64,000 nt of DNA, taken from the NCBI RefSeq assembly GCF_002283555.1, contig NZ_MVOI01000003.1, forward strand, positions 1,905,578-1,969,577. The letters are read 5' to 3'. Positions 35,745-50,436 of the stretch are shown here, one piece after another. Numbering within the stretch: the stretch's first letter is position 1; every line of letters starts with the position of its first letter. Made by a program: the position numbers and the translations under genes. Under the pieces are notes generated by a model that made no database searches, was not told where the DNA came from, and worked only from the letters and a program-made list of their open reading frames with translations. The DNA is from Rubrivirga sp. SAORIC476. GTDB lineage: Bacteria; Bacteroidota; Rhodothermia; Rhodothermales; Rubricoccaceae.

Positions 35745-36215
35745 ATGTCGCACACTTCGCCTCTGGGGCGTTTCGCCCTCCTGTTCGTCGTTTTCCTGTT
35801 CGTCGGCTGTGGGTCGGGCAACGGGGTCCGCGAGAATCGCGATCCCAACGTGGTCACGGCGGCCGACACGGACGGCCAGGCGCTGGCGCGTGTCGAGGAC
35901 ATGCTGCGCGGGCAGGTCGCGGGCGTACAGGTCCGCCAGGAAGCAGGCAACCTCGTCATCCGGATCCGCGGCACCGAGAGCATCCGAGCCGACGGCAACG
36001 CGGACCCTCTGTTCGTGATCGACGGGATCGCGGTTCCGCTCGGGGTGGGGGGCGCGCTCCAGGGCATCAACCCGCGCGACGTCGCCAGCATCCGTGTGCT
36101 GAAGAACGCCAGCGAGACCGCCATGTATGGGTCGCGTGGGGCCAACGGGGTCATCCTGATCACGACCGTCCGGCCGGACTCAGGAGGGCACGACGGCTCG
36201 GGCGCCGGGTCCTGA
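35745..36215 (+). CDS. stand-alone TonB-plug lipoprotein (SusC-type plug without barrel)
   Basis: 156 residues. The signal peptide RFALLFVVFLFVGCGSGNG has a lipobox (VGC), so it is a lipoprotein. The rest is a SusC-like plug domain: VEDMLRGQVAGVQVRQEAGN, RIRGTESIRADGNADPLFVI, then IRVLKNASETAMYGSRGANG and VILITT, which is the signature found in the SusC plug encoded 1 kb downstream. No beta-barrel follows. The ATG at 35745 begins the signal peptide. It precedes the susC promoter by about 100 nt, so it may be a separate transcript. It could interact with SusC barrels or bind ligand; the role is unknown. Confidence 0.8.
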   Translation: MSHTSPLGRFALLFVVFLFVGCGSGNGVRENRDPNVVTAADTDGQALARVEDMLRGQVAGVQVRQEAGNLVIRIRGTESIRADGNADPLFVIDGIAVPLGVGGALQGINPRDVASIRVLKNASETAMYGSRGANGVILITTVRPDSGGHDGSGAGS

Positions 36216-36304
36216 ATGCGCTTTTCCTGGGATGCGTGAGAGTGAAGGGCAGCGGAGGAGACGGCCAGGCAGCCGTGCCGCCCTACAGTCTCTAAAGCCC
36301 GATG

Positions 36305-36336
36305 TAAGCGTTTGCGCAATCTGGGGGAAACGCTTA
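36305..36336 (+). promoter_or_regulatory. paired operator-like inverted repeat at the susC promoter
   Basis: TAAGCGTTT (36305-36313) and AAACGCTTA (36328-36336) form a perfect 9-bp inverted repeat with a 14-nt spacer. Each arm contains an AANCGNTT core, the half-conserved centre of LacI-family operators; the CG centres are 22 bp apart. One arm covers the -33 element and the other the -7 element of the promoter below. It is a candidate site for a LacI-type regulator or another dimeric protein. No regulator gene is next to it. Confidence 0.55.
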
Positions 36337-36342
36337 AGCTTG
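36312..36342 (+). promoter_or_regulatory. Bacteroidota-type promoter of susC
   Basis: TTG (36312-36314), 20-nt spacer, TAAGCTTG (36335-36342), 7 of 8 matches to TAnnTTTG. It overlaps both arms of the operator-like repeat and lies 74 nt before the susC ATG. Confidence 0.6.
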
Positions 36343-36416
36343 GGTCGGCTGATAGCGCTTCCGGTCTCTGGTGGTGCGGTCGGTCGAACGGACACCCCAC
36401 ACACACCCCTACACAG

Positions 36417-39400
36417 ATGAGTCGGAACGCTACCCTCCTCGGGCTGGCCGCGCTCCTGTTTGCGTTCGGTGCGGCCCCCGCGGCCGTCGCGCAAACGGTA
36501 ACAGGCACAGTCGTGGACGCCTCCTCTGGCGACCCCCTGCCCTTCGTCAACGTCGTCATCGAAGGCACCACGCGCGGCGCCGCGACCAACCTCGACGGCG
36601 AGTACTCGATCGCGGTGGACGGCCCCGAGTCGGTCCTCGTCTACCGCTTCCTCGGCTACATCACGGCAACCGAGACGGTCGGCAGCCGCTCCGTCATCGA
36701 CGTGCGCCTCGAAGAGGACTCCGACATCCTCGACGAGGTCGTCGTGGTCGGCTACGGCACGCAGCGTCGCGGCGACGTGACGGCCTCGGTGTCGTCGGTT
36801 GATGTCGACGACGCCAACGAGGGGCTGGTGACCGCCCCGACGGACTTCCTGGAAGGCCGGGTGGCGGGTGTGAGCGTGATCGAGAGCTCGGGCGAGCCCG
36901 GCGCGAACGTCTCCGTCCGGATCCGTGGCGGCACGTCCATCACGGCGTCCAACGAGCCGCTCTATGTCATCGACGGCATCCCGGTCTCGGGCGACAACGT
37001 CACGCCCGGAGGCGCAGGCCAGGCCACGGCCGGCCCGGCGCGCAACCCGCTGACGCTGCTCAACCCGAACGACATCGCGTCGGTGACGGTCCTCAAGGAC
37101 GCCTCCGCGACGGCCATCTACGGCTCGCGCGGCGCCAACGGCGTGGTCCTGATCACGACCAAGAACGGGGCTCAGGGCCGCGTCACGGTCGACTATGAGG
37201 GCTCGTTCTCGATCTCGCAGGCCAGCGAGACGTTCGACGTGCTCACGGCCGACGAGTACCGCCAGTTCGTGACGACCAACTTCGGCGCGGGGACCCTCGC
37301 CGGTCCCGATCCATCGCTCAACACGGGCTCGATCAACAGCGACTTCGTCGGGGAGCTCTTCCGGCCTGCACCGACGCAGTCCCACAACCTGTCGTTCGGC
37401 GGCGGCACCGCGAACACGCAGTACCGCGCCAGCCTGAGCTACCTCAACCAGGACGGCATCGTGATCTCGTCCGGGCTGGAGCGCGTGACCGCGCGCCTCA
37501 ACGCGAGCAACCAGCTCTACGACAACAAGCTGCGGCTGAGCCTCAACCTGACGAGCGCCCTCACCGACGACGACTTCGTGCCGGCCAACGACACGGGCGG
37601 CTTCGAGGGCGGTCTCTTCCAGAACGCCATCCAGTACCGGCCGGTCGCCCCGGTCAACGACCCGAACGCCAACGACGGCTTCTACGAGGTCCCCGGCCAG
37701 CGGTCGTTCCGCAACCCGGTGGCGCTCGCCGAGCAGGTCGATGAGACGGCCCGCACCGTCCGTACGCTGGGCAACATCTCGGCGGAGCTGGACCTGATGG
37801 AGGGCCTGACGGCCTCGCTCAACGTGGGCGGTGACCGCTCGGTCGGCGCGCGGCGCTCCTACATCCCCGGTGCCAGCCCGATCGGCGCGGAGTTCACGAC
37901 GGCGACCACCAACGGCGGCTCCGGCTACCGGCGGACGCTGGAGCGGTCCTCGGCGACGCTCTCGACGTACCTCACCTACGGCACCAACGTCGGCAACAGC
38001 AACTTCGACCTGCTCGGCGGCTACGAGTACCAGCGGTTCAACTACAGCGAGACCTCGCTCCAGGCGGTCTCGTTCGTGACCGACTTCACGGAGGACAACC
38101 AGCTCCAGTCGGGCTCGGTCGTGGTCAACGCCAACAACGCCGGGCCGGGCTCCTTCTCGGCGCGCGCCGAGAACCTGCTGGCGTCGTTCTTCACGCGCAC
38201 CAACTACAACTACGACGAGCGCTACTACCTGACCGGCTCGCTCCGCTACGACGGCTCGTCGCGCTTCTCGGCCGACAACCGGTACGCGCTCTTCCCGGCC
38301 ATCTCGGGCGCCTGGCGCATCTCGGCGGAGCCGTTCTTCGACGGCGGCACGGCGGTCACCGACCTCCGTCTCCGCGCGGGCTACGGCGTCGTGGGCAACC
38401 AGGGCATCGGCGACTACCTGTACCTCCCGCTGCTCGGTGCCAACCCGGCCAACTCGGCGGTCCTCAACGGGATCATCGTGCCGGGCTACGCCCCCACGCA
38501 GCTCGAGAACCCGGATCTGAAGTGGGAGCAGAAGGAGGAGTTCACGGTCGGCCTCGACTACCGACTCCTGAGCGACCGCCTCTACGGCTCGGTCGAGTTC
38601 TACCGCAACACGACCAACGACCTGCTCCTGAACGTGCCGGTGCTCGCGTCGGTCGTGGCCAGCCAGGTCCAGAACGTCGGCTCGCTGCGCAACACGGGCG
38701 TCGACCTCTCGCTGGACGCGCTGCTCTTCGAGAACGACAACGCGTCGTTCACGCTCGGGCTCACGTTCAACACGAACCAGAACGAGGTGCTCGACCTCGG
38801 CGGTGCCAACCAGCTGTTCACCGGCCTCGTCTCGGGCGAGGGCCAGTCGAACGTGAACGCGCTCCTGCTGACGCCGGGCGAGGAGTTCCCGGTGTTCTAC
38901 GGCTTCGAGTTCACGGGCGACTTCGACAACGGTGCGGCCGTCTTCAACGACTACGAAGCCAGCGACCTCGACGGCGACGGCATCGTCGGCCCGCTCGAGC
39001 GCACGCTCGTCGGCACGACGACGGCGCCGGGCGACGATGACCGCGTCAAGATCGGCAGCCCGCGCCCGGACTTCACGTACGGCATCCGCCTCAACGCGGC
39101 GTTCGGCGATCTCGGCGTCCGCGCGTTCTTCCGCGGCGAGCAGGGCCGGGAGCTGCTCAACAACACGGCGCTCGTCTACGGGACGCGCGCGGTGGCCGGC
39201 AACCGCAACGTGCTCGACCTTGGCAGCGACTTCTACGCCACCGAGGACATCGGCGCGGCGGCCGTCTACTCGTCGCGCTACGTCGAGGACGCCTCGTTCC
39301 TGCGCCTCGACCAGCTCACGTTGGACTACGCGCTCGGCTCGATCATTCCGGAGGTCCGCAACGCGCGCGTCTTCGTGACGGGCAACAACCTGTTCGTGGT

Positions 39401-39533
39401 CACGCCCTACTCGGGTGTGGACCCCGAGGTGAACTCGAATGCCTCGACGGACGGCATCACGTCGATCGGGGTGGACTACCTGCCGTACCCCCGGGCGCGT
39501 ACGTTCACCGTCGGTGTCAACCTGAGCCTCTAA
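36417..39533 (+). CDS. SusC/RagA-family TonB-linked outer-membrane transporter
   Basis: 1,038 residues. A signal peptide ends at AAVAQ. A carboxypeptidase-regulatory-like domain follows (about 24-105, TGTVVDASSGDPLPFVNVVI, GEYSIAV), then a TonB-box-like EVVVVGYGTQRRGDV. The plug domain (about 125-245) ends with ASATAIYGSRGANGVVLITT, the SusC signature. A large beta-barrel runs to the C terminus (FTVGVNLSL). SusC proteins import oligomers handed over by SusD at the outer membrane using TonB energy. The susD gene follows after 60 nt that hold a UUCG hairpin. No anti-sigma-binding extension is present, so sigma/anti-sigma control is unlikely; an operator-like repeat sits at the promoter instead. 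Substrate unknown. Confidence 0.95.
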   Translation: MSRNATLLGLAALLFAFGAAPAAVAQTVTGTVVDASSGDPLPFVNVVIEGTTRGAATNLDGEYSIAVDGPESVLVYRFLGYITATETVGSRSVIDVRLEEDSDILDEVVVVGYGTQRRGDVTASVSSVDVDDANEGLVTAPTDFLEGRVAGVSVIESSGEPGANVSVRIRGGTSITASNEPLYVIDGIPVSGDNVTPGGAGQATAGPARNPLTLLNPNDIASVTVLKDASATAIYGSRGANGVVLITTKNGAQGRVTVDYEGSFSISQASETFDVLTADEYRQFVTTNFGAGTLAGPDPSLNTGSINSDFVGELFRPAPTQSHNLSFGGGTANTQYRASLSYLNQDGIVISSGLERVTARLNASNQLYDNKLRLSLNLTSALTDDDFVPANDTGGFEGGLFQNAIQYRPVAPVNDPNANDGFYEVPGQRSFRNPVALAEQVDETARTVRTLGNISAELDLMEGLTASLNVGGDRSVGARRSYIPGASPIGAEFTTATTNGGSGYRRTLERSSATLSTYLTYGTNVGNSNFDLLGGYEYQRFNYSETSLQAVSFVTDFTEDNQLQSGSVVVNANNAGPGSFSARAENLLASFFTRTNYNYDERYYLTGSLRYDGSSRFSADNRYALFPAISGAWRISAEPFFDGGTAVTDLRLRAGYGVVGNQGIGDYLYLPLLGANPANSAVLNGIIVPGYAPTQLENPDLKWEQKEEFTVGLDYRLLSDRLYGSVEFYRNTTNDLLLNVPVLASVVASQVQNVGSLRNTGVDLSLDALLFENDNASFTLGLTFNTNQNEVLDLGGANQLFTGLVSGEGQSNVNALLLTPGEEFPVFYGFEFTGDFDNGAAVFNDYEASDLDGDGIVGPLERTLVGTTTAPGDDDRVKIGSPRPDFTYGIRLNAAFGDLGVRAFFRGEQGRELLNNTALVYGTRAVAGNRNVLDLGSDFYATEDIGAAAVYSSRYVEDASFLRLDQLTLDYALGSIIPEVRNARVFVTGNNLFVVTPYSGVDPEVNSNASTDGITSIGVDYLPYPRARTFTVGVNLSL

Positions 39534-39555
39534 GTCGTCCCTGGTCTTTTTACCT

Positions 39556-39579
39556 GGGGCCGGTCTTCGGACCGGCCCC
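39556..39579 (+). terminator. UUCG-loop hairpin between susC and susD
   Basis: GGGGCCGGTC-TTCG-GACCGGCCCC, 10 perfect pairs closed by the very stable C(UUCG)G tetraloop, 23 nt past the susC stop and 15 nt before the susD ATG. CTTTTTACC lies upstream rather than downstream, so it is a pausing, attenuation or RNA-stability element more than a classical terminator. Confidence 0.65.
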
Positions 39580-39593
39580 GCCCCCACGATCCC

Positions 39594-41183
39594 ATGAACC
39601 GACTCTCTACACGCGCCCGCCTGGCCGTGCTGGCTGGTCTCCTCGCCCCGGCCCTCGGGCTGGCGGCGTGCACCGACCTCTCGGTGGACCCGTACAGCTC
39701 CGTCACGCCGGAGAACTTCTACCAGACCGACATCGAGGTCGTCGCGGCCCTGTCCCCGGTCTACTCCCAGCTGCGCGCGACGCTCTGGGACTACCACAAC
39801 ATGAGCCAGGTCACGTCCGACGAGACCATCGTCCCGACGCGCGGTGGCGACTGGTTCGACGGTGGCGACTGGCTGTCGCTCCACCAGCACTCCTGGACGC
39901 CGCAGCTCGGCTTCATCAACGGCGCCTGGAACACGTCCTACGCAGGCATCGCCCGGGCGAACAGCCTGCTGAGCGACCTCCAGACGATCGAGGTCCCCAA
40001 CAAGGACGGCCTCATCGCTGAGATCCGCGGCCTCCGCGCGTTCTACTACTACACGCTGCTCGACCTCTTCGGAAACGTCCCGCTCATCGGCGACGAGGAG
40101 GGCGAGTTCCGCGTCGACCCGGACAACCTGCCGCCGACGGAGACGCGCGCGACGGTGTACCAGTTCGTCGTCGACGAGCTCGAGGAGATCCGTGCCGACC
40201 TGCCGGTCGCAGGCGCGGGCAACGGCGGTCGCTTCTCGCAGGGCGCCGTCGACGCCATGCTGGCCAACATCTACCTCAACGCAGAGGTCTTCAGCGGCAC
40301 CACGACAGCCGGCGGCATCCAGCGTGGCCCGCAGCAGTACCAGAAGGCCATCGACGCGGCGACCCGCGTGATCAACGGCCCGTACGCGCTCAACCAGGGC
40401 TCCGCCGCGTGGTTCGACCAGTTCTCGCCGACCAACCAGGCCGACGAGGAGCACATCTTCGTGGTGCAGCACCTCGGGGCCGACGGGTACGGGCTGAACT
40501 TCCCGAACCGCGGCCTCCACTACAACTCGTTCGCGGGTGGGGGCTGGAACGGCTTCTCGACGATCGCGGAGACCTACGGCACCTTCGACGCCGACGACCC
40601 GCGCGTCGGCATCTTCGCCATCGGTCAGGCGATCAACTACGACACCGGCGAGCCGATCAACAACCGGGCGGGCGATCCGCTGATCTTCGATCTCGACTTC
40701 GAGAACGGCGTGACTCCGGCGGGTGGCGGTGCCAGTGAGGGCGATGGCGTCCGCATCGTCAAGTTCCCGGTCGACGTCAACCGCGAGACCAACGGCAACA
40801 ACAGCAACGACTACCCCTACTTCCGCCTCGCGGAGATGTACCTGATCCGGGCCGAGGCCAACCTCCGGCTGGGGAACCCCGGCCCGGCGCTCGCCGACAT
40901 CAACATGCTGCGTGCGCGCCTCTCGGGCGACGTCGACGGCGACGGCACCGACGACACGCCGGCCCCGCTGACGTCGGTCACGCTCGCCGACATCCTCAAC
41001 GAGCGGCTCTTCGAGCTGACCTACGAGGCGCGTCGCCGGCAGGACCTGATCCGGTTCGACCAGTTCACCCAGCGCGACTGGTCGTTCAAGAACGGCAGCC
41101 AGCCGTTCCGCGTGGTCTTCCCGATCCCGCAGACCCAGATCGACGCCTCGGACGGGCTGCTGATGCAGAACCCGGGCTACTAA
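39594..41183 (+). CDS. SusD/RagB-family surface lipoprotein
   Basis: 529 residues. Signal peptide with lipobox LGLAACTDLSVDP. A SusD-like N-terminal part (about 25-230) includes TPENFYQTDIEVVAALSPVY and IRGLRAFYYYTLLDLFGNVP; the C-terminal RagB/SusD region ends with FPYFRLAEMYLIRAEAN-like sequence (YPYFRLAEMYLIRAEANL), RLFELTYEARRRQDLIRF and FPIPQTQIDA. It binds substrate and acts as the lid of the SusC barrel. ATG at 39594 follows CCCCCACGATCCC. A 14-bp hairpin 20 nt past its stop ends the pair. Assignment is secure; the ligand is unknown. Confidence 0.95.
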   Translation: MNRLSTRARLAVLAGLLAPALGLAACTDLSVDPYSSVTPENFYQTDIEVVAALSPVYSQLRATLWDYHNMSQVTSDETIVPTRGGDWFDGGDWLSLHQHSWTPQLGFINGAWNTSYAGIARANSLLSDLQTIEVPNKDGLIAEIRGLRAFYYYTLLDLFGNVPLIGDEEGEFRVDPDNLPPTETRATVYQFVVDELEEIRADLPVAGAGNGGRFSQGAVDAMLANIYLNAEVFSGTTTAGGIQRGPQQYQKAIDAATRVINGPYALNQGSAAWFDQFSPTNQADEEHIFVVQHLGADGYGLNFPNRGLHYNSFAGGGWNGFSTIAETYGTFDADDPRVGIFAIGQAINYDTGEPINNRAGDPLIFDLDFENGVTPAGGGASEGDGVRIVKFPVDVNRETNGNNSNDYPYFRLAEMYLIRAEANLRLGNPGPALADINMLRARLSGDVDGDGTDDTPAPLTSVTLADILNERLFELTYEARRRQDLIRFDQFTQRDWSFKNGSQPFRVVFPIPQTQIDASDGLLMQNPGY

Positions 41184-41203
41184 CGCCTCGATGTGGTCTT
41201 CTC

Positions 41204-41237
41204 CGAGCGCCTCGCCCCCTCCCGGGCGGGGCGCTCG
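41204..41237 (+). terminator. 14-bp hairpin after susD
   Basis: CGAGCGCCTCGCCC (41204-41217) pairs with GGGCGGGGCGCTCG (41224-41237) with one T·G, loop of 6, followed by TCTGTGG. It lies 20 nt past the susD stop. Confidence 0.7.
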
Positions 41238-41318
41238 TCTGTGGATGCCGGCCGTGCCTCTGGCACGCCCGACCGCCACCGACCCGTTCGGCGAGGCGGA
41301 TGCCGACTCGTTCTCCCT

Positions 41319-44300
41319 ATGCGCCTGACTGCCTTTTCGTTGCTCGCTCTGCTCGGCCTCGGCGGCTGCAGCGGCGAGGCCGACCGCACCCTCTTCTCGT
41401 CGCTCGACGCGGCCGGTGCCGGTCTCGACTTCGAGAACCGGCTCGAGGAGAGCCAGGAGGTGAACGTGTTCACCTTCCGGCACTTCTTCAATGGGGCCGG
41501 GGTGGGGGTCGGCGACGTGGACGGGGACGGCCGGCCGGACGTGTTCCTGACCGCCAACCAGGGCCCGAACCGGCTCTTCCTGAACCGGACCGAGTCCGGC
41601 GGTCCCATCCAGTTCGAGGACGTGACCGAGGCCGCCGGGGTCGCGGGGACACGGGCCTGGAGCACCGGCGTCTCGGTGGCCGACGTGGACGGCGACGGGC
41701 GGCTCGATCTCTACGTCGCCAACGCGGGCGCCGTCGACGGCGGCGAGAGTGCCAACGAACTCTACCGCAACCTGGGGCCGGGGGCCGACGGGGTCCCCCG
41801 CTTCGAGGAGGTCGCCGAGGCCTGGGGCGTCGCCGACGAGGGCGTTTCGATCCACGGCGCCTTCTTCGACTACGACAGCGATGGGGACCTCGACCTGTAC
41901 GTGCTCAACAACTCGTTCGAGGCGTCGTCGTCGTTCCGGATGGGCCTCCGCGACGCACGTGACCTGCGCGACGAGCGCGGCGGCGACCGCCTCTACCGCA
42001 ACGACGCCGCGCCGGGCGAGGCGCCGCGGTTCGCCGACGTGAGTGCCGAGGCGGGGATCTACGGACCTGAGATCGCGCTCGGCCTCGGCGTCATGCTGGG
42101 CGACGTGGACGACGACGGGGACCTCGACGTCTACATCTCGAACGACTTCTTCGAGCGGGACTACTTCTACCTCAACCGCGGCGACGGCACCTTCGAGGAG
42201 GTGCTCGAGGGAGCGATGCCGGTCACGAGCCTCTCGTCGATGGGCGCCGACATGGCCGACCTCACCGGCGACGGTCGCCCCGAGGTGTTCACCGTCGACA
42301 TGCTGCCGTGGGACGATGACCGGCTCAAGGGATCGTCCAGCTTCGAGGGCCACAACCTGTACCGCGCCAAGGTGGCCAGCGGGTACCACCACCAGATCAT
42401 GCGCAACGCCCTCCAGCGCAACAACGCCGACGGGACGTACTCCGAGATCGCGTCCATCGCGGGTGTCGACGCGACCGACTGGAGCTGGGCGCCCCTCTTC
42501 GCAGACCTCGACCTGGACGCCCGCGCCGACCTCTACATCACCAACGGCATCCTCCGCGACGTCACCGATCAGGACTACATCGCCTTCATGGCCGATGTCG
42601 AGACGCAGGAGGCGATGCTGACCGGGGACGGGGTCGACTTCCTCCAGCTGATCCAGGCGATGCCGTCGACGCCGCTGGAGAACCTCGCCTTCGCGAACGT
42701 CTCCGGCGGCGACTCGGTGGCGTTCCGACGGGCGCCCGAGTGGGGGCTCAACGAGGCGGGCTACTCGAACGGCGCCGCGACCGTGGACTTCGACGGCGAC
42801 GGCGACCTCGACCTGATCGTCAACAACGTCAACGCGCCGGTGTCGCTGTACGAAAACCACGCCGCCGACCGGCTGGGGCGGCGGGCGCTGGCGATGGCGC
42901 TGGAGGGCGAGGGCGGCAACACGGGCGGCATTGGCGCGAAGGTGGCCGTGTGGAACGGCGGCGCGGTGCAGGTCCGCGAGGCCGTCCCCACGCGCGGCTT
43001 CCAGTCGAGCGTGGGCCCCGTGCTGCACGTCGGGCTGGGGGAGGCGACCGCGGCCGACTCCGTCGTGGTCCGCTGGCCGAGCGGCGCCGTTCAGGTGCTG
43101 GCGGACGTGCCCGCGGGCCGCATCACGCTCCGCGAGGCTGACGCATCCGGTGCCTTTCGTCTGCTGGTGCCACCGGCCACACCGGCCGGCCCCTTCCGCG
43201 ACGTGACTGCGGTGGCGGCGCCGGGGTGGACGCACGCTGCGAGCACGGGCGTCGACTTCGACCGCGAACTGCTCATGCCGCGCGCCTACTCGGCCGACGG
43301 CCCGGCGGCGGCCGTGGGCGACGTGGACGGCGACGGCGCCGACGACCTGTTCGTGGGGGGAGGCGCGGGCCAGCCGGGCGTGCTGTGGCTGCGGCGCGGC
43401 GACCGGTTCGACCTGCGGACCCCCGACTCCTTCGCAGCCCACGCCGCCGCCGACGACGTGGCCGCGATCTTCCTCGATGCCGATGGCGACGGTGACCTCG
43501 ACCTGTACGTCGGGTCGGGTGGCTACACGGACCCGGCCAGCCCCGCGCTCCGCGACCGCCTCTACCTCGGCGACGGCGCGGGCGGCTTCACCGAGGCGGG
43601 CGAGGGCGCCATCCCCACGACGACCGCCAGCACCGGCACCGTCGCCGCGGCCGATTGGGATGGCGATGGCGACATCGACCTGTTCGTCGGCGCCCGCGTC
43701 GAGGCGGGCGCCTACGGCACGAGCCCGCGCAGCGCGCTCCTCCGCAACGACGGCCGTCCCGGCGCGGCCCGCTTCGTGGACGTGACGCGCGCCACCGCGC
43801 CGGGCCTCGACGAGGCCGGGATGCTCGCCAGCGGCCTCTTCGCCGACATCGACGCCGACGGCGACCCGGACCTCGTGACGGCGGGCGAGTGGCAGCCGAT
43901 CACCGTCTGGACCAACGACGGCGGCCGATTCGCGCCCGCGCCCATCGCCGGCACTACGGGCCTGTGGCAGGGCCTGACCGCGGCCGACCTCGACGGGGAC
44001 GGCGACCCGGACCTCGTCGGTGCCAACTGGGGGCTCAACAGCCGCCTCCGTACCGAAGGCGGTCCGTTGCGCCTCCACGTCGGCGACTTCGATGGGAACG
44101 GCCGCATCGACCCGCTGCTGTCGGTCATGAATGGGGGCCGGAGCCTGCCGTTCGCGCTCCGCAACGAACTGACAGGCCAGTTGCCGAGCCTCAAGCGCGA
44201 GTACCTCACGCCGTCGACCTATGTCGGCAAGCGCGTCGAGGACCTGCTGACGCCTGCGCAGTTGGAGCGCGCGACGGTGTTCGAGGCCTCCGAGCTGGCG

Positions 44301-44669
44301 TCCGTGGTGGTGCTCAACGAGGGGGACGCGTGGCGCGTCCGGCGGCTCCCGTTCGAGGCCCAGCTCTCCCCGATGGTCGCCCTGCTCGCGCTCGACGCCG
44401 ACGGCGACGGCGCGCTCGACCTGCTGATGGCGGGCAACCGCGACGCCCTCAAGCCCGACCTCGGGCGGTTGGCGGCGTCGGCCGGGGCGTACCTGCGGGG
44501 CGATGGGCGGGGCGGCTTCGCGACCGTTGCCGGTGGCGTGAGCGGGTTCGTGGTGCGCGGCGAGACCCGCCAGCTGGTCCACCTCGGGGGGGCCGGGGGC
44601 GATCTCGTGGTGGCCGTCCGCCACGGCGCTGCACCGGTCGTGTTCGCGCTGGACGGGGCCGCGCCCTAG
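41319..44669 (+). CDS. CRTAC1-type surface lipoprotein: FG-GAP/VCBS repeats with ASPIC/UnbV domain (copy 1)
   Basis: 1,116 residues. Signal peptide MRLTAFSLLALLGLGGCSGE with lipobox (GGC). Many calcium-type FG-GAP/VCBS repeats follow, each around DVDGDGRPDVFL or DVDDDGDLDVYI. An ASPIC/UnbV domain lies at about 530-600 (VREAVPTRGFQSSVGPVLHV ... VRWPSGAVQVLADVP). A second propeller-like set of repeats runs from about 620 to 1,100 (GDVDGDGADDLFVGGGAG). Proteins of this layout are common beside SusCD pairs in Bacteroidota; their ligand is not known. ATG at 41319 starts the signal peptide. A hairpin follows the stop, then a paralogue. Confidence 0.9.
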   Translation: MRLTAFSLLALLGLGGCSGEADRTLFSSLDAAGAGLDFENRLEESQEVNVFTFRHFFNGAGVGVGDVDGDGRPDVFLTANQGPNRLFLNRTESGGPIQFEDVTEAAGVAGTRAWSTGVSVADVDGDGRLDLYVANAGAVDGGESANELYRNLGPGADGVPRFEEVAEAWGVADEGVSIHGAFFDYDSDGDLDLYVLNNSFEASSSFRMGLRDARDLRDERGGDRLYRNDAAPGEAPRFADVSAEAGIYGPEIALGLGVMLGDVDDDGDLDVYISNDFFERDYFYLNRGDGTFEEVLEGAMPVTSLSSMGADMADLTGDGRPEVFTVDMLPWDDDRLKGSSSFEGHNLYRAKVASGYHHQIMRNALQRNNADGTYSEIASIAGVDATDWSWAPLFADLDLDARADLYITNGILRDVTDQDYIAFMADVETQEAMLTGDGVDFLQLIQAMPSTPLENLAFANVSGGDSVAFRRAPEWGLNEAGYSNGAATVDFDGDGDLDLIVNNVNAPVSLYENHAADRLGRRALAMALEGEGGNTGGIGAKVAVWNGGAVQVREAVPTRGFQSSVGPVLHVGLGEATAADSVVVRWPSGAVQVLADVPAGRITLREADASGAFRLLVPPATPAGPFRDVTAVAAPGWTHAASTGVDFDRELLMPRAYSADGPAAAVGDVDGDGADDLFVGGGAGQPGVLWLRRGDRFDLRTPDSFAAHAAADDVAAIFLDADGDGDLDLYVGSGGYTDPASPALRDRLYLGDGAGGFTEAGEGAIPTTTASTGTVAAADWDGDGDIDLFVGARVEAGAYGTSPRSALLRNDGRPGAARFVDVTRATAPGLDEAGMLASGLFADIDADGDPDLVTAGEWQPITVWTNDGGRFAPAPIAGTTGLWQGLTAADLDGDGDPDLVGANWGLNSRLRTEGGPLRLHVGDFDGNGRIDPLLSVMNGGRSLPFALRNELTGQLPSLKREYLTPSTYVGKRVEDLLTPAQLERATVFEASELASVVVLNEGDAWRVRRLPFEAQLSPMVALLALDADGDGALDLLMAGNRDALKPDLGRLAASAGAYLRGDGRGGFATVAGGVSGFVVRGETRQLVHLGGAGGDLVVAVRHGAAPVVFALDGAAP

Positions 44670-44684
44670 GCCGCCCCTTACACT

Positions 44685-44709
44685 GTCCCTCTCCCCAGGG
44701 AGAGGGGAC
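44685..44709 (+). terminator. hairpin between the two CRTAC1-type genes
   Basis: GTCCCTCTCC (44685-44694), loop CCAG, GGAGAGGGGAC (44699-44709) with one bulged G. It lies 16 nt past the stop of copy 1. Confidence 0.6.
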
Positions 44710-44835
44710 GCTCGTTGTGACGCTGTGCTCACGTTCTCGATGACCCGACTCGCTTCTCGCTTCCCCATGATGCGTTCTGTACTCGTCGACACGCCTCGTC
44801 TCGTCCGCGGGACGAGGTCGGAGGGGCGCCGTGGG

Positions 44836-47800
44836 ATGGCACCGCCGTGGGCGTTCGCGGTGCTCCTCCTCGCGCTGGTCGGGTGTGGCGGCAGCGACCC
44901 GAACGCGCTGTTCGAGCGCCTCGACCCGGCCGCGACCGGCGTCACGTTCTCGAACGACCTCGCCGAGAGCGCCGAGTTCAACATCCTCAGCTACCTCTAC
45001 TACTACAACGGCGGCGGCGTGGCTGCGGGCGACGTGGACGGCGACGGTCGGCCGGATCTCTACTTCACCGCCAACGAGGGGCCGAACGCGCTCTACCTCA
45101 ACCGGACGGAGGACGGCGGGCCCATCCGATTCGAGGAGGCCACCGAGGCGGCCGGGGTCGCGGGCTCCAGCGACTGGACCACCGGCGCCACGCTCGCCGA
45201 CGTGGACGGCGACGGCGACCTCGATCTCTACGTCTCGGCGCTCGGCGCCTACAAGACGCAACGGGGCCGCAACGAGCTCTTCCTCAACGAAGGCCCCGGC
45301 GCGGACGGCGTCCCCCGTTTCCGCGAGGCCGCCGCCGAGGTGGGGCTCGACTTCGAGGGCTTCGGCACGCAGGCGGCGTTCTTCGACATGGACCACGACG
45401 GCGACCTGGACGCGTTTCTGCTCAATCACGCCGTCCACACCGACCGGACGTATGCGGCGCCCGAGAAGACGCGCCAGCGCGATGAGCGCTCCGGCGACCG
45501 CCTCTACCGCAACGACGCCGCGCCGGGCGAGACGCCGCGCTTCGTGGAGGTGACCGAGGCGGCGGGCATCGTCAGCGGCATCTCGGGCTACGGGCTCTCG
45601 GTCGTCCCGGCCGACCTCGACGGCGACGGGTGGACCGACCTCTACGTCGGCAACGACTTTCACGAGAACGACTTCGTCTACCTCAACAACACCGACGGCA
45701 CGTTCCGCGAGGTCTCCCGGACCGCACTCGCCCACTCGTCGCGCTTCTCGATGGGCGCCGACGCAGGCGACGTGGACGGCGACGGCCGGGCGGATCTCGT
45801 GGTCCTCGACATGATGCCGCGCCGCGAGGACATCCGCCAGCGCTCCGGCGGCGACGACACCTACGACATCGACTCGTTCAAGCGCGAACTGGGCTACGGC
45901 CCGCAGGTCGCCCGCAACTCGCTCCAACTCAACCGCGGCCCCGGCCCCGACGGCGTCCCGCGGTTCTCGGACGTGGCGACGTTCTCCGGCCTCGAAGCGA
46001 CCGACTGGAGCTGGGCCGCCCTCCTCGCCGACCTCGACCTCGACGGCCGTCGCGACCTCTTCGTGACCAACGGCATCTGGCGGCGGCCCAACGACCTCGA
46101 CTACATCAACTACATCGCCGACCCGGCCATCCAGCAAAACCTGGCGCAGGGAATGGGGGAGGAGAACCTGGCGCTGCTGGAGAAGATGCCCCAGGTGGCG
46201 ATCCCCAACGAGGTCTTCCGCGGCGTCGGCGGGTTCCGGTTCGAGGAGGCCGACTGGGGACTCGCCGATGAGGGCTTCTCGAACGGCGCGGCGACCGCCG
46301 ATCTGGACAACGACGGCGACCTCGACCTGATCGTCAACAACGTCAACGCGCCCGCGTCGATCTACCGCAACGGCGCCGCCGACGCCGGGGCGACGAGCCT
46401 GAGCGTGTCGCTGGAGGGCGAGGGTGGCAACACGAGCGGCATCGGCGCGCGGGTCGAGGTGTGGACCGACAGCCTCCGCCAGACCGCCGAGGCGCAGCCG
46501 ACGCGCGGCTACCTGTCGTCGGTGGACCCCCGCCTCGTTGTCGGTCTGGACGGCGTGGCTCAGGCGGCGCGCGTTCGCGTGACCTGGCCCGACGGGCGCG
46601 TGCAGACGCTCACCGACGTACCCGCCGGCCCGCTCCTCCTCCGCCAGTCCGACGCCGGTCCGCCCAGCGAGGCGCCCGCGCCGACGGCCACGCCGCGCCT
46701 GTTCGCGGAGGTCCCTGGGGCCGGCGCACCCGTGTGGCGGCACGTCGAGAACGTGTTCATCGACTTCAACCGCGAGCGGCTGATGCCCCACATGGTCTCC
46801 CGCCTCGGCCCCGCGCTGGCGGTGGCCGACGTGAACGGCGACGGCCGGGAGGATGTGTTCGTCGGCGGGGCACGGGGGCAGGCCAATGCGCTTTTCCTCC
46901 AGACCTCGGGCGGCGGCTTCGCCGAGGCGCCGGCCACCGCCTGGGCCGACCACGCCGAGGGCGAGGCCGTCGATGCGGTGTTCTTCGACGCGAACGGCGA
47001 TGGCGCGCTCGACCTCTACGTGGCGACGGCGGGCAACGAGTTCCGCGGCGCGCGCGACGAGATCCGCGATCGTCTCTACCTCGGCGATGGCGCGGGTGGG
47101 TTTACGTCCGCGCCGGCGGGGGCGCTACCGGATCGCTTCGTCCACGTCGGCGCCGTGGCGGCGAGCGACTGGGACGGCGACGGCGACACGGACCTCTTCG
47201 TCGGCGGGCGCGTGGTGCCGCGGGCGTATGGCATGCCCGCGCCGAGCGCGCTCCTCGTCAACGACGGCACCGGCCGCTTCTCGGAGGCCACGGCCGATCT
47301 CGCCCCTGGCCTCGCCGAGGTGGGCATGGTCAGCCGCGCCGCCTTCGGCGACGTGGACGGTGACGGCCGTGACGACCTGATCCTGGCGGGCGAGTGGATG
47401 GCGCCGACCGTCTACCGCGCCACCGGTACCGGCTTCGAGGCGCTCGACACCGGGCTGGCCGACGACACCGGCTGGTGGACCGCCCTCGACGCGGCCGACT
47501 ACGACGGCGACGGCGACCTCGACCTCGCGCTCGGCAACCTCGGTCTCAACTCGCGCCTCCGCGCCACGCCCGAGCACCCCGCCCGCCTCTGGCTCGCCGA
47601 CTTCGACGGCAACGACGCGCTCGACGGCATCCTGACCTCGTTCCGCGACGGCGACGACTACCCGCTCGCGACCGTCGGCGTGCTCCAGCAGCAGTTCCCG
47701 GAGCTGCGACGGACCTACCCGACCTACACCGAGTTCGGCGCGCGGACGGTGCCGGAGCTGTTCGGCAGCCGCGCCCGCGACGCCGAGCAGCGACGCGCCA

Positions 47801-48180
47801 CCACGTTCGCCAGCGCCGTCGCCTGGAACGACGGCACCGGCCGCTTCGCCCTCCGTCCGCTCCCCGACCTCGCCCAGATCGAGCCCGTCTACGCCATCGC
47901 CTCCGGCGACGTGGACGGCGACGGCGTGCTGGACCTCGTGCTCGGCGGCGGGCTGCTGGGCGTTCGCCCCAACCGGGGCCGGTACGATGCAGGCCACGGG
48001 CTGGCGCTGCTCGGCGATGGCGCAGGCGGCTTCGTGCCCACCGACCTCGGCGCGGGGCTCGTGCTCGACGGCGAGGTCCGCGCGCTCCGCTTCGTGGACG
48101 GCTCGCTGCTGCTGAGCGCCTCCTCCGACGGCCCGCTCCAGGCGTTCCGCGTCGGCCCCCAGGCCCTCGCATCCCGATGA
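44836..48180 (+). CDS. CRTAC1-type surface lipoprotein: FG-GAP/VCBS repeats with ASPIC/UnbV domain (copy 2)
   Basis: 1,114 residues, paralogous to the preceding protein along its whole length (for example NDFxENDFVYLNN against NDFFERDYFYLNR, and ATDWSWAxLxADLDLDxR in both). Lipobox in LLLALVGCGGSD. FG-GAP/VCBS repeats (DVDGDGRPDLYF), a central ASPIC/UnbV domain (AQPTRGYLSSVDPRLVVGL ... VTWPDGRVQTLTDVPAG) and a second repeat set (DVNGDGREDVFVGG). I chose ATG 44836 because it begins the signal peptide; upstream in-frame ATGs at about 44725-44772 are possible. The two copies are clearly diverged, so the duplication is old and both are retained, suggesting different ligands or a heteromeric surface complex. 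Confidence 0.88.
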   Translation: MAPPWAFAVLLLALVGCGGSDPNALFERLDPAATGVTFSNDLAESAEFNILSYLYYYNGGGVAAGDVDGDGRPDLYFTANEGPNALYLNRTEDGGPIRFEEATEAAGVAGSSDWTTGATLADVDGDGDLDLYVSALGAYKTQRGRNELFLNEGPGADGVPRFREAAAEVGLDFEGFGTQAAFFDMDHDGDLDAFLLNHAVHTDRTYAAPEKTRQRDERSGDRLYRNDAAPGETPRFVEVTEAAGIVSGISGYGLSVVPADLDGDGWTDLYVGNDFHENDFVYLNNTDGTFREVSRTALAHSSRFSMGADAGDVDGDGRADLVVLDMMPRREDIRQRSGGDDTYDIDSFKRELGYGPQVARNSLQLNRGPGPDGVPRFSDVATFSGLEATDWSWAALLADLDLDGRRDLFVTNGIWRRPNDLDYINYIADPAIQQNLAQGMGEENLALLEKMPQVAIPNEVFRGVGGFRFEEADWGLADEGFSNGAATADLDNDGDLDLIVNNVNAPASIYRNGAADAGATSLSVSLEGEGGNTSGIGARVEVWTDSLRQTAEAQPTRGYLSSVDPRLVVGLDGVAQAARVRVTWPDGRVQTLTDVPAGPLLLRQSDAGPPSEAPAPTATPRLFAEVPGAGAPVWRHVENVFIDFNRERLMPHMVSRLGPALAVADVNGDGREDVFVGGARGQANALFLQTSGGGFAEAPATAWADHAEGEAVDAVFFDANGDGALDLYVATAGNEFRGARDEIRDRLYLGDGAGGFTSAPAGALPDRFVHVGAVAASDWDGDGDTDLFVGGRVVPRAYGMPAPSALLVNDGTGRFSEATADLAPGLAEVGMVSRAAFGDVDGDGRDDLILAGEWMAPTVYRATGTGFEALDTGLADDTGWWTALDAADYDGDGDLDLALGNLGLNSRLRATPEHPARLWLADFDGNDALDGILTSFRDGDDYPLATVGVLQQQFPELRRTYPTYTEFGARTVPELFGSRARDAEQRRATTFASAVAWNDGTGRFALRPLPDLAQIEPVYAIASGDVDGDGVLDLVLGGGLLGVRPNRGRYDAGHGLALLGDGAGGFVPTDLGAGLVLDGEVRALRFVDGSLLLSASSDGPLQAFRVGPQALASR

Positions 48181-48411
48181 AAACCGACGCGATGCCTTGC
48201 GAGATGCAGGCTGTCTCCGCGACCTTGCAGGTACGGCACAGAAGCCCAGTGGCGGTATCCCGAACGGATGGGAGGGATCTCCGAGCCGATGCACCGAGGC
48301 CGCCCGTGCTGGCGGTCAGGCCTCGCGAGTTCGGGACGGCGAGGCGTGGGAGCGGATGGCGGTAAAGCCGTCTCCGCTCGCGACTGGATACAGAAGACCC
48401 CCGACGACCCG

Positions 48412-49749
48412 ATGACTGTGCGCCCCCTCGCTCTCCTCCTCGCCCTCGGCCTGCTCGCCGGGTGCCAGGCCCCCGACGGCCCGCCGCCGCCCGAGGCGGA
48501 GGACCCCGAACTGCTGCACGGCGCGTTCCAGCGGATCACCGACGTGATGACGTACGACATCACGAGCCCCCCGCAGGCTGCCCGCGTCTACGCCTACGTG
48601 TCGGTCGCCGCCTACGAGGCCCTCGCCCCGACCCGCCCCGACCGGGTCTCGCTCACAGGCCAGCTCCGCGACTTCGACGCGCCCCCCCCGCCCGGCGACG
48701 ACGTGCATGGCCCGACGGCTGCGCTCTGGGCCGCCCTCACCGTCGGCGAGGCGCTGACGTTCTCCGACGACCGGGTGGCCGAGTACCGTGCCGAGGCCGA
48801 GCAGGCGCTCCGCGACGCTGGGCTCGGCCGCGCCCGCCTCGCCGCCTCCACGGCGCACGGGGAGGCCGTCGCCCGGCACGTGCTCGCCTGGGCCGCCGCC
48901 GACGGCTATGCCCAGACGCGCAGCGGCCCGGCCTACACCATCTCCGACGAGCCCGGCACGTGGCGCCCGACGCCGCCCGCCTACATGGACGCCATCGAGC
49001 CCAACTGGGCCACGCTGCGCCCGTTCGTGCTCGACTCGGCCGCGCAGTTCAAGCCCGAGCCGCCGCCGCCGTACTCGCTCGCGCCCGGCTCCCCCTTCCG
49101 TCAGCAGGTCGACGACGTGGTCGCGGTGACGAACGCCATGACCGAGGAGCAGCGTGCCATCGCCAGCTTCTGGGACTGCAACCCGTACGTCATGCACACG
49201 CGCGGCCACGCCATGTTCGCCACCAAGAAGATCACGCCGGGGGGCCACTGGATGGGGATCGCCGCCATCGCCAGCCGCCTCGCGGGCGACGACACGGCAG
49301 GCGCAGCCGAGGCCTACGTCCGCACCGCCCTCGCCCTAGCCGACGGCTTCCTCTCGGTGTGGGACGAGAAGTACCGCAGCCGCCTCGTTCGCCCCGAGAC
49401 CGTGATCAACGAGCACATTGACGAGGACTGGGCCCCGCTTCTGCAGACGCCGCCCTTCCCCGAGTACTCCTCCGGTCACAGCGTCATCTCGGGCGCCGCC
49501 GCCGAGGCCCTCACGGCGCTCTACGGCGACGATGTCGCCTTCGACGACGACACCGAGGTGCCCTACGGGCTCCCCGTCCGCTCGTTCGGGTCGTTCCGTG
49601 AGGCGGCTGAGGAGGCGGCCATCAGTCGGCTCTATGGCGGCATCCACTACCGGATGGCCGCCGAGCGCGGCCTCGACCAGGGGCGTGGCATCGGCGCGTT
49701 CCACGTCGAGCGCCTCGACACGCGGACACCCAGCGTGGCCGGGCGGTAG
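48412..49749 (+). CDS. vanadium-dependent haloperoxidase-like PAP2-superfamily lipoprotein
   Basis: 445 residues. Lipobox in LLALGLLAGCQAPDG. The C-terminal half has the three motifs of the PAP2/vanadium haloperoxidase site: KYRSRLVRP (K-x6-RP), YSSGHSVISG (SGH) and SRLYGGIHYRMA (SR-x5-H). The acid phosphatase Asp after the last His is replaced by Ala, which fits haloperoxidases better than phosphatases. The N-terminal half is helical (VYAYVSVAAYEALAP). It could oxidise halides with H2O2 at the surface or periplasm, or be a phosphatase-like enzyme; sequence cannot decide. ATG at 48412 starts the signal peptide. It ends the SusCD/CRTAC1 locus. The 231 nt before it hold no recognised element. 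Confidence 0.85.
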   Translation: MTVRPLALLLALGLLAGCQAPDGPPPPEAEDPELLHGAFQRITDVMTYDITSPPQAARVYAYVSVAAYEALAPTRPDRVSLTGQLRDFDAPPPPGDDVHGPTAALWAALTVGEALTFSDDRVAEYRAEAEQALRDAGLGRARLAASTAHGEAVARHVLAWAAADGYAQTRSGPAYTISDEPGTWRPTPPAYMDAIEPNWATLRPFVLDSAAQFKPEPPPPYSLAPGSPFRQQVDDVVAVTNAMTEEQRAIASFWDCNPYVMHTRGHAMFATKKITPGGHWMGIAAIASRLAGDDTAGAAEAYVRTALALADGFLSVWDEKYRSRLVRPETVINEHIDEDWAPLLQTPPFPEYSSGHSVISGAAAEALTALYGDDVAFDDDTEVPYGLPVRSFGSFREAAEEAAISRLYGGIHYRMAAERGLDQGRGIGAFHVERLDTRTPSVAGR

Positions 49750-50319: not shown

Positions 50320-50436
50320 TGATGGGGGAGGCCGGAGAGGTGTCGGCCCCGGACCTCGCCATCTGGACGTGAAAGGGCTTCCACTCGGGAAGGGAGTGGC
50401 CCTACATTGGCGGACCTTCACGGTCCATTGATCATC

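Follow-up and report, generated by a model that had tools for sequence, protein, structure and literature searches.

How the susC gene of this locus is controlled is the question raised by its promoter, which carries an eye-catching inverted repeat. The usual explanation for SusCD loci is regulation by sensors of periplasmic glycan. In the present case, what we find favors a LacI-type repressor that works in the cytoplasm and is encoded elsewhere in the chromosome, and both its gene and two operators can be named. We consider it likely that a pair of LacI-family operators represses the susC-susD-ASPIC-ASPIC-PAP2 operon, the repressor most probably being the product of the unlinked gene C3:886k. 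The inverted repeat itself is not the part under selection. Throughout, the window is the whole stretch of DNA analyzed, 64,000 nucleotides long, and the promoter elements, operators 1 and 2, the operon genes, and the open reading frame upstream of susC all lie on the forward strand.

Two conserved LacI-type sites at the susC promoter

The preliminary description reported a perfect 9-bp inverted repeat over a TTG-N20 promoter and read it as twin LacI-like half-sites sharing a core, with CG centers 22 bp apart. The repeat is there: TAAGCGTTT (36305 to 36313) and AAACGCTTA (36328 to 36336) are separated by a 14-bp loop and overlap TTTG-N20-TAAGCTTG. So are the common core, with AANCGNTT in each arm, and the spacing, with CG centers at 36309/10 and 36331/32. 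"Half-sites," on the other hand, is a misnomer, as either arm by itself is a near-complete CG-centered palindrome.

To see which parts are conserved, we compared the footprint in the window's genome with those in two congeneric genomes, G001 and G003, whose SusC proteins share 79 to 80% identity with the SusC encoded here. As a unit, the inverted repeat is absent from both same-genus susC orthologues, so the proposed conservation upstream of susC fails for the repeat and holds for its left arm and for the promoter spacing. Since the right arm keeps only 4 of 9 columns in these orthologues, the repeat was rejected as a functional unit. From the three-genome conservation, the left arm belongs to a complete CG-centered operator, the right arm is private to the window's genome, where it may provide an extra site, and the conserved partner of the left arm lies farther downstream.

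Operator 1, TGTAAGCGTTTGCGCA (36303 to 36318), is a LacI-type palindrome that includes the left arm and covers the presumed −33 element, TTTG (36311 to 36314). It reads TGTAAGCGTTTGC[G/A]CA, with 15 of 16 columns identical in the three genus genomes, and scores 13.3 bits with a matrix built from LacI auto-operators. The presumed −7 element, TAAGCTTG (36335 to 36342), keeps TTAA and its spacing (5 of 8 columns), and TTTG-N20-TAA is present in all three genomes; TAAGCTTG is one base off the −7 box given for Flavobacterium psychrophilum, TAnnTTTG (PMC9723704). The promoter position claimed earlier thus holds, as the LacI-type site lies on TTG-N20-TAAGCTTG, which ends at 36342, 75 bp ahead of the susC ATG (36417).

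Operator 2, CTGATAGCGCTTCCGG (36349 to 36364), falls where transcription is expected to start. All 14 columns of its core, GATAGCGCTTCCGG (36351 to 36364), are identical in the three genomes, each of which contains exactly one copy of GATAGCGCTTCCGG; its fit to the auto-operator matrix is weak (7.7 bits). This conserved partner of operator 1 was overlooked in the preliminary description. Operators 1 (TGTAAGCGTTTGCGCA) and 2 (GATAGCGCTTCC) are both CG-centered, imperfect palindromes; they start at −114 and, for the operator 2 16-mer, −68 relative to the susC ATG and are 47, 49, and 49 bp apart in the three genomes. Conservation around them is much lower, with 2 of 16 columns kept between 36319 and 36334, 24 of 102 between 36200 and 36301, and 30 of 52 between 36365 and 36416. 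On this comparison, the element is a predicted LacI-family operator over the −33 box with a second one 47 to 49 bp downstream, near the expected start.

The operon and its surroundings

susC (36417 to 39533) encodes a SusC/RagA-type TonB-dependent transporter (TIGR04056, 737 bits against a cutoff of 368, with Pfam matches as well) composed of CarbopepD_reg, plug, and barrel domains. It was said to have no anti-sigma-binding extension, and no STN/anti-sigma-contact domain was reported for it at an E value of ≤0.001. There follow genes for a SusD-like lipoprotein (39594 to 41183; PF07980, 110 bits), two FG-GAP/ASPIC-UnbV proteins recognized by domain match (41319 to 44669 and 44767 to 48180), and a PAP2-superfamily protein (48412 to 49749; PF01569, 32 bits), which presumably belongs to the operon and marks its end.

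The susC-susD-ASPIC-ASPIC(-PAP2) arrangement (36417 to 49749) is a conserved cluster in this order. Most of the 20 neighborhoods that we fetched, 17 of them around orthologues, keep susC-susD followed by ASPIC-type proteins; the exceptions are L077, which has no ASPIC-type proteins in the stretch, and L080, which has them upstream of susC. Few genes were called in L078 and L079, the gene caller being tuned to high G+C. A literature search on ASPIC/UnbV together with SusD and TonB-dependent receptors found no paper containing SusD.

The upstream neighbor of susC is an open reading frame (35745 to 36215) that resembles the plug domain and signature of SusC only (TIGR04056 positions 100 to 208, under the NCBIfam cutoff). 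By our own reading, it has relatives near susC in 10 of the 20 fetched neighborhoods, and many related loci have them either ahead of susC or behind susD. It is unusual for a plug protein to lack a barrel.

Past the operon, GTGAAAGGGCTTCCAC (50369 to 50384) lies 68 bp ahead of a 3-keto-disaccharide hydrolase gene (50437). It scores 13.8 bits, although its center is GG instead of CG, and is identical in G001 and different only at the first base in G003; it is likely a second conserved operator in the window.

A candidate repressor gene about 1.06 Mb away

The window's genome has five LacI-family genes. One of them, C3:886k, is unlinked to susC, from which it is separated by about 1.06 Mb. Its product matches PF00356 (64.1 bits) and PF13377 (120.1 bits), both above cutoff, and so combines a LacI helix-turn-helix with a periplasmic-binding-protein-like ligand domain. 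Among NCBIfam equivalogs, the best match is RbsR (211.5 bits; cutoff, 382), and ccpA reaches 180.8 bits (cutoff, 442); because the protein falls below every equivalog cutoff, no named equivalog (RbsR, CcpA, MalI, or others) can be assigned to it.

We placed C3:886k in a tree of 69 LacI proteins, which includes all five from the window's genome, all matches from G001, G002, and G003, and three of the seven from G052, and leaves out G024, G025, G035, and G050, among others. C3:886k falls in a clade of 12 (clade A) with support of 100/100. A TGTAAGCGCTTACA-like site is found upstream of all 12 clade A genes, and operator 1 agrees with TGTAAGCGCTTACA at 11 of 14 positions in the window's genome and at 12 of 14 in G001 and G003. 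The LacI gene with a like site at its own promoter that the preliminary description proposed to look for was therefore found, as clade A lacI, in all three genus genomes, and the assignment of the susC site to the LacI type is borne out by a site type common to the susC and clade A lacI promoters.

Exact matches tell the same story. In G003 and in G001 (an assembly that is 81% complete), TGTAAGCGNTTNCA occurs just twice per genome, once in the promoter of susC and once in that of clade A lacI. In the window's genome, the single exact match to TGTAAGCGNTTNCNCA is susC operator 1, and allowing one mismatch yields two places, one in the clade A lacI promoter and the other ahead of a gene for a transketolase; when two mismatches are allowed, TGTAAGCGNTTNCNCA returns 24 rows against 46 for the reversed control. 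Patterns of this kind were drawn up with the sites already known, and therefore it is the absence of any other exact place that counts.

The layout is shared as well. By our own reading, the clade A lacI promoters are of the form TTG-N20-TAT, with the same spacing as that of susC and the strong operator just downstream. Those of the three genus genomes have a second, AGCGCTTCC-type site 70 to 82 bp from the first, and in G003 this site is one base off the operator 2 core. At its outer right, the site reads ...CGC in front of lacI, susC, and the GH31 gene of the window's genome and ...CAC in front of lacI and susC in G001 and G003 (compare 36303 to 36318 of the window, L031 8088 to 8103, and L145 3989 to 4004), as if the operators of the window's genome had drifted together.

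Operator 1 could instead serve a LacI protein outside clade A, either one of the other four or a different one in each lineage, and we regard this as unlikely. LacI operators are alike, and another LacI gene of the window's genome, C6:721k, has a related site, TGTAACCGGTTACA; moreover, the LacI genes directly upstream of orthologous susC in G019 and G030 (L075 6531 to 7550 and L074 2129 to 3145) are of another clade, clade B. The exact sites, however, are common to clade A lacI promoters only, and the 69-protein tree holds no clade B member from the window's genus, on which ground a clade B LacI was rejected as the regulator here.

LacI-type sites upstream of susC in the order

To follow the susC operator beyond the genus, SusC was searched against 60 genomes (the window's own and 59 relatives), 36 of which had a match at an E value of ≤1e−100. 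The orthologue set comprises 22 matches of 44 to 100% identity, one per genome and the window's own included; eight loci with <44% identity or fragments (L056 to L063) and lower matches were left out as paralogues or incomplete. We then scanned 250 bp of upstream sequence from each of the 22 orthologues with the matrix, which was derived from the 12 clade A auto-operators and contains no susC site.

CG-centered sites of at least 11.7 bits were found upstream of 11 of the 22 susC orthologues versus 13 of 165 neighboring-gene upstream regions, some of which belong to LacI genes (Fisher P = 4e−6, with relatedness not accounted for and the cutoff set afterwards). The operator is thus kept upstream of susC in 3/3 genomes of the genus and 11/22 in the order. 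By family, the hits are 3/3 in f1, 3/3 in f4, 2/2 in f12, 1/1 in each of f5 and f8, and 1/2 in f13; no good site was present in the 250 bp upstream of susC in f3 (0/6) or f14 (0/4) by the matrix scan. Two 11.7-bit places in f3 (G010 and G024) have the center CT, were rejected as canonical sites, and are excluded from the count. Sites occur in 10 of 16 genomes with clade A and 1 of 6 without it, a difference that is not significant (P = 0.15).

G019 and G030 are not the only genomes in which a LacI gene adjoins susC: in G002, G031, and G058, a clade A LacI gene immediately precedes a susC homologue that is more distant. Because LacI genes of differing clades adjoin susC homologues, the association of LacI with SusCD looks old in this group, while the particular LacI may change.

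One arm or two

Could both arms of the repeat nevertheless act together, as sites for two adjacent repressor dimers separated by about two turns of the helix? The perfect 9-bp symmetry and the 22 bp from center to center invite this reading. The repeat alone is weak evidence, since the window contains many perfect 9-bp repeats with short loops (50 with loops of 3 to 30 bp against 27 to 38 in five shuffles; 4 of the 50 have a 14-bp loop). Two AANCGNTT cores so close together are rare: the window has a single such pair, and 200 shuffles gave none. The genome-wide scan suggested for the twin-core pattern found the susC place plus three others in the whole 4.48-Mb genome, four in all, against one for the reversed pattern. 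The other pairs are at L026 8001 to 8028, ahead of a 1,507-amino-acid open reading frame that we take to be glutamate synthase; at L027 7001 to 7050, where four cores follow a presumably leuD-like open reading frame; and at L028 8001 to 8027. LacI-like pairs 19 to 21 bp apart also precede susC in G011 and G025 and, with one CT-centered member, in G010, G024, and G044. A twin operator, however, requires that both arms be kept in orthologues, and the second arm is missing from both same-genus orthologues while the first arm and operator 2 are kept; the 16-mer at 36324 that represents the right arm scores just 6.8 bits. We therefore think it quite improbable that the arms work as a pair.

Very improbable is a conserved promoter or leader sequence that resembles LacI sites by accident: the abundance of short-loop repeats in the window and the fact that GGAARCGCTTCC, with one mismatch allowed, shows no genome-wide excess relative to the reversed control would fit it, but two CG-centered blocks are nearly fully conserved within an otherwise diverged region, and a LacI gene promoter shares their exact matches.

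A model for control of the operon

In the reading that we prefer, repression by an operator pair and an unlinked clade A LacI, the C3:886k protein would bind operator 1; because operator 1 covers the −33 element, RNA polymerase would be blocked. Operator 2, over the transcription start, would probably be bound by the same repressor, a sugar ligand would release it, and the LacI protein would also repress the gene that encodes it, by way of the same two types of site. From the sequence, its conservation, the shared sites, and the gene neighborhoods, we infer repressor binding, the direction of control, the ligand, and any loop between operators 1 and 2. The system resembles a conventional sugar-sensing switch that works over a distance.

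What the ligand might be is suggested by other high matrix scores in the window's genome, which lie before genes for a GH31 glycosidase (19.7), an alpha-amylase (17.9), and the transketolase (17.5); an alpha-glucan or central-carbon signal is our guess. A more ambitious version, which we put forward tentatively and think less likely than not to hold in full, has the unlinked LacI use strong TGTAAGCGNTTNCA and auxiliary AGCGCTTCC-type operators to repress, by looping, the gene that encodes it and the distant SusCD-ASPIC-PAP2 operon, in one regulon with the three enzyme genes. If true, a catabolite sensor in the cytoplasm would govern this SusCD locus in place of the usual membrane sensors.

Comparison with known systems

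The closest parallel that we found is SuxR/suxAB of Xanthomonas campestris, in which a LacI/GalR repressor, released by sucrose, regulates both its own gene and an operon for a TonB-dependent receptor (PMC1790865). The same combination of targets and sugar release is predicted here; on the other hand, suxR lies beside its targets in a proteobacterium, whereas the system described here has an unlinked regulator, a SusC receptor accompanied by a SusD, and binding that is only predicted. LacI-family operators, as surveyed, are even palindromes with a CG center, located 140 to 30 bp before the start codon, and autoregulation is common (PMC4052901). The susC operators share the even CG-centered palindrome, the position, and a site at the lacI promoter with these; in the part of the survey available to us, a single Bacteroides group represents the phylum, and this order and SusCD operons are not mentioned.

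More broadly in the phylum group, the LacI-family regulators KdgR, UxaR, UxmR, and UxuR of Bacteroides thetaiotaomicron control sugar pathways (PMC3878776). These regulators, however, are assigned to uronate pathways, and the SusCD loci of that species are, in the portion consulted, mainly assigned to HTCS, SusR-like, sigma/anti-sigma, AraR (NrtR family), or ManR (GntR family) control (PMC3878776). The xylan locus of Gramella flava lists lacI and susC/susD together (PMC5306329), a similar association; there, lacI is linked and the portion of the report consulted describes no operator, whereas here lacI is unlinked and comes with predicted operators. Our literature search, which covered its sources in part, found no operator study of a LacI-SusCD pair for this order.

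That a LacI-family regulator can control an operon for a TonB-dependent receptor is thus already known, as is the presence of lacI genes in SusCD loci. The present system, as predicted, is distinguished by a regulator that is not linked to its target and by a layout of two operators that recurs at the regulator's own gene, and a named LacI gene with named operators gives a way to test which sugar induces a SusCD locus.
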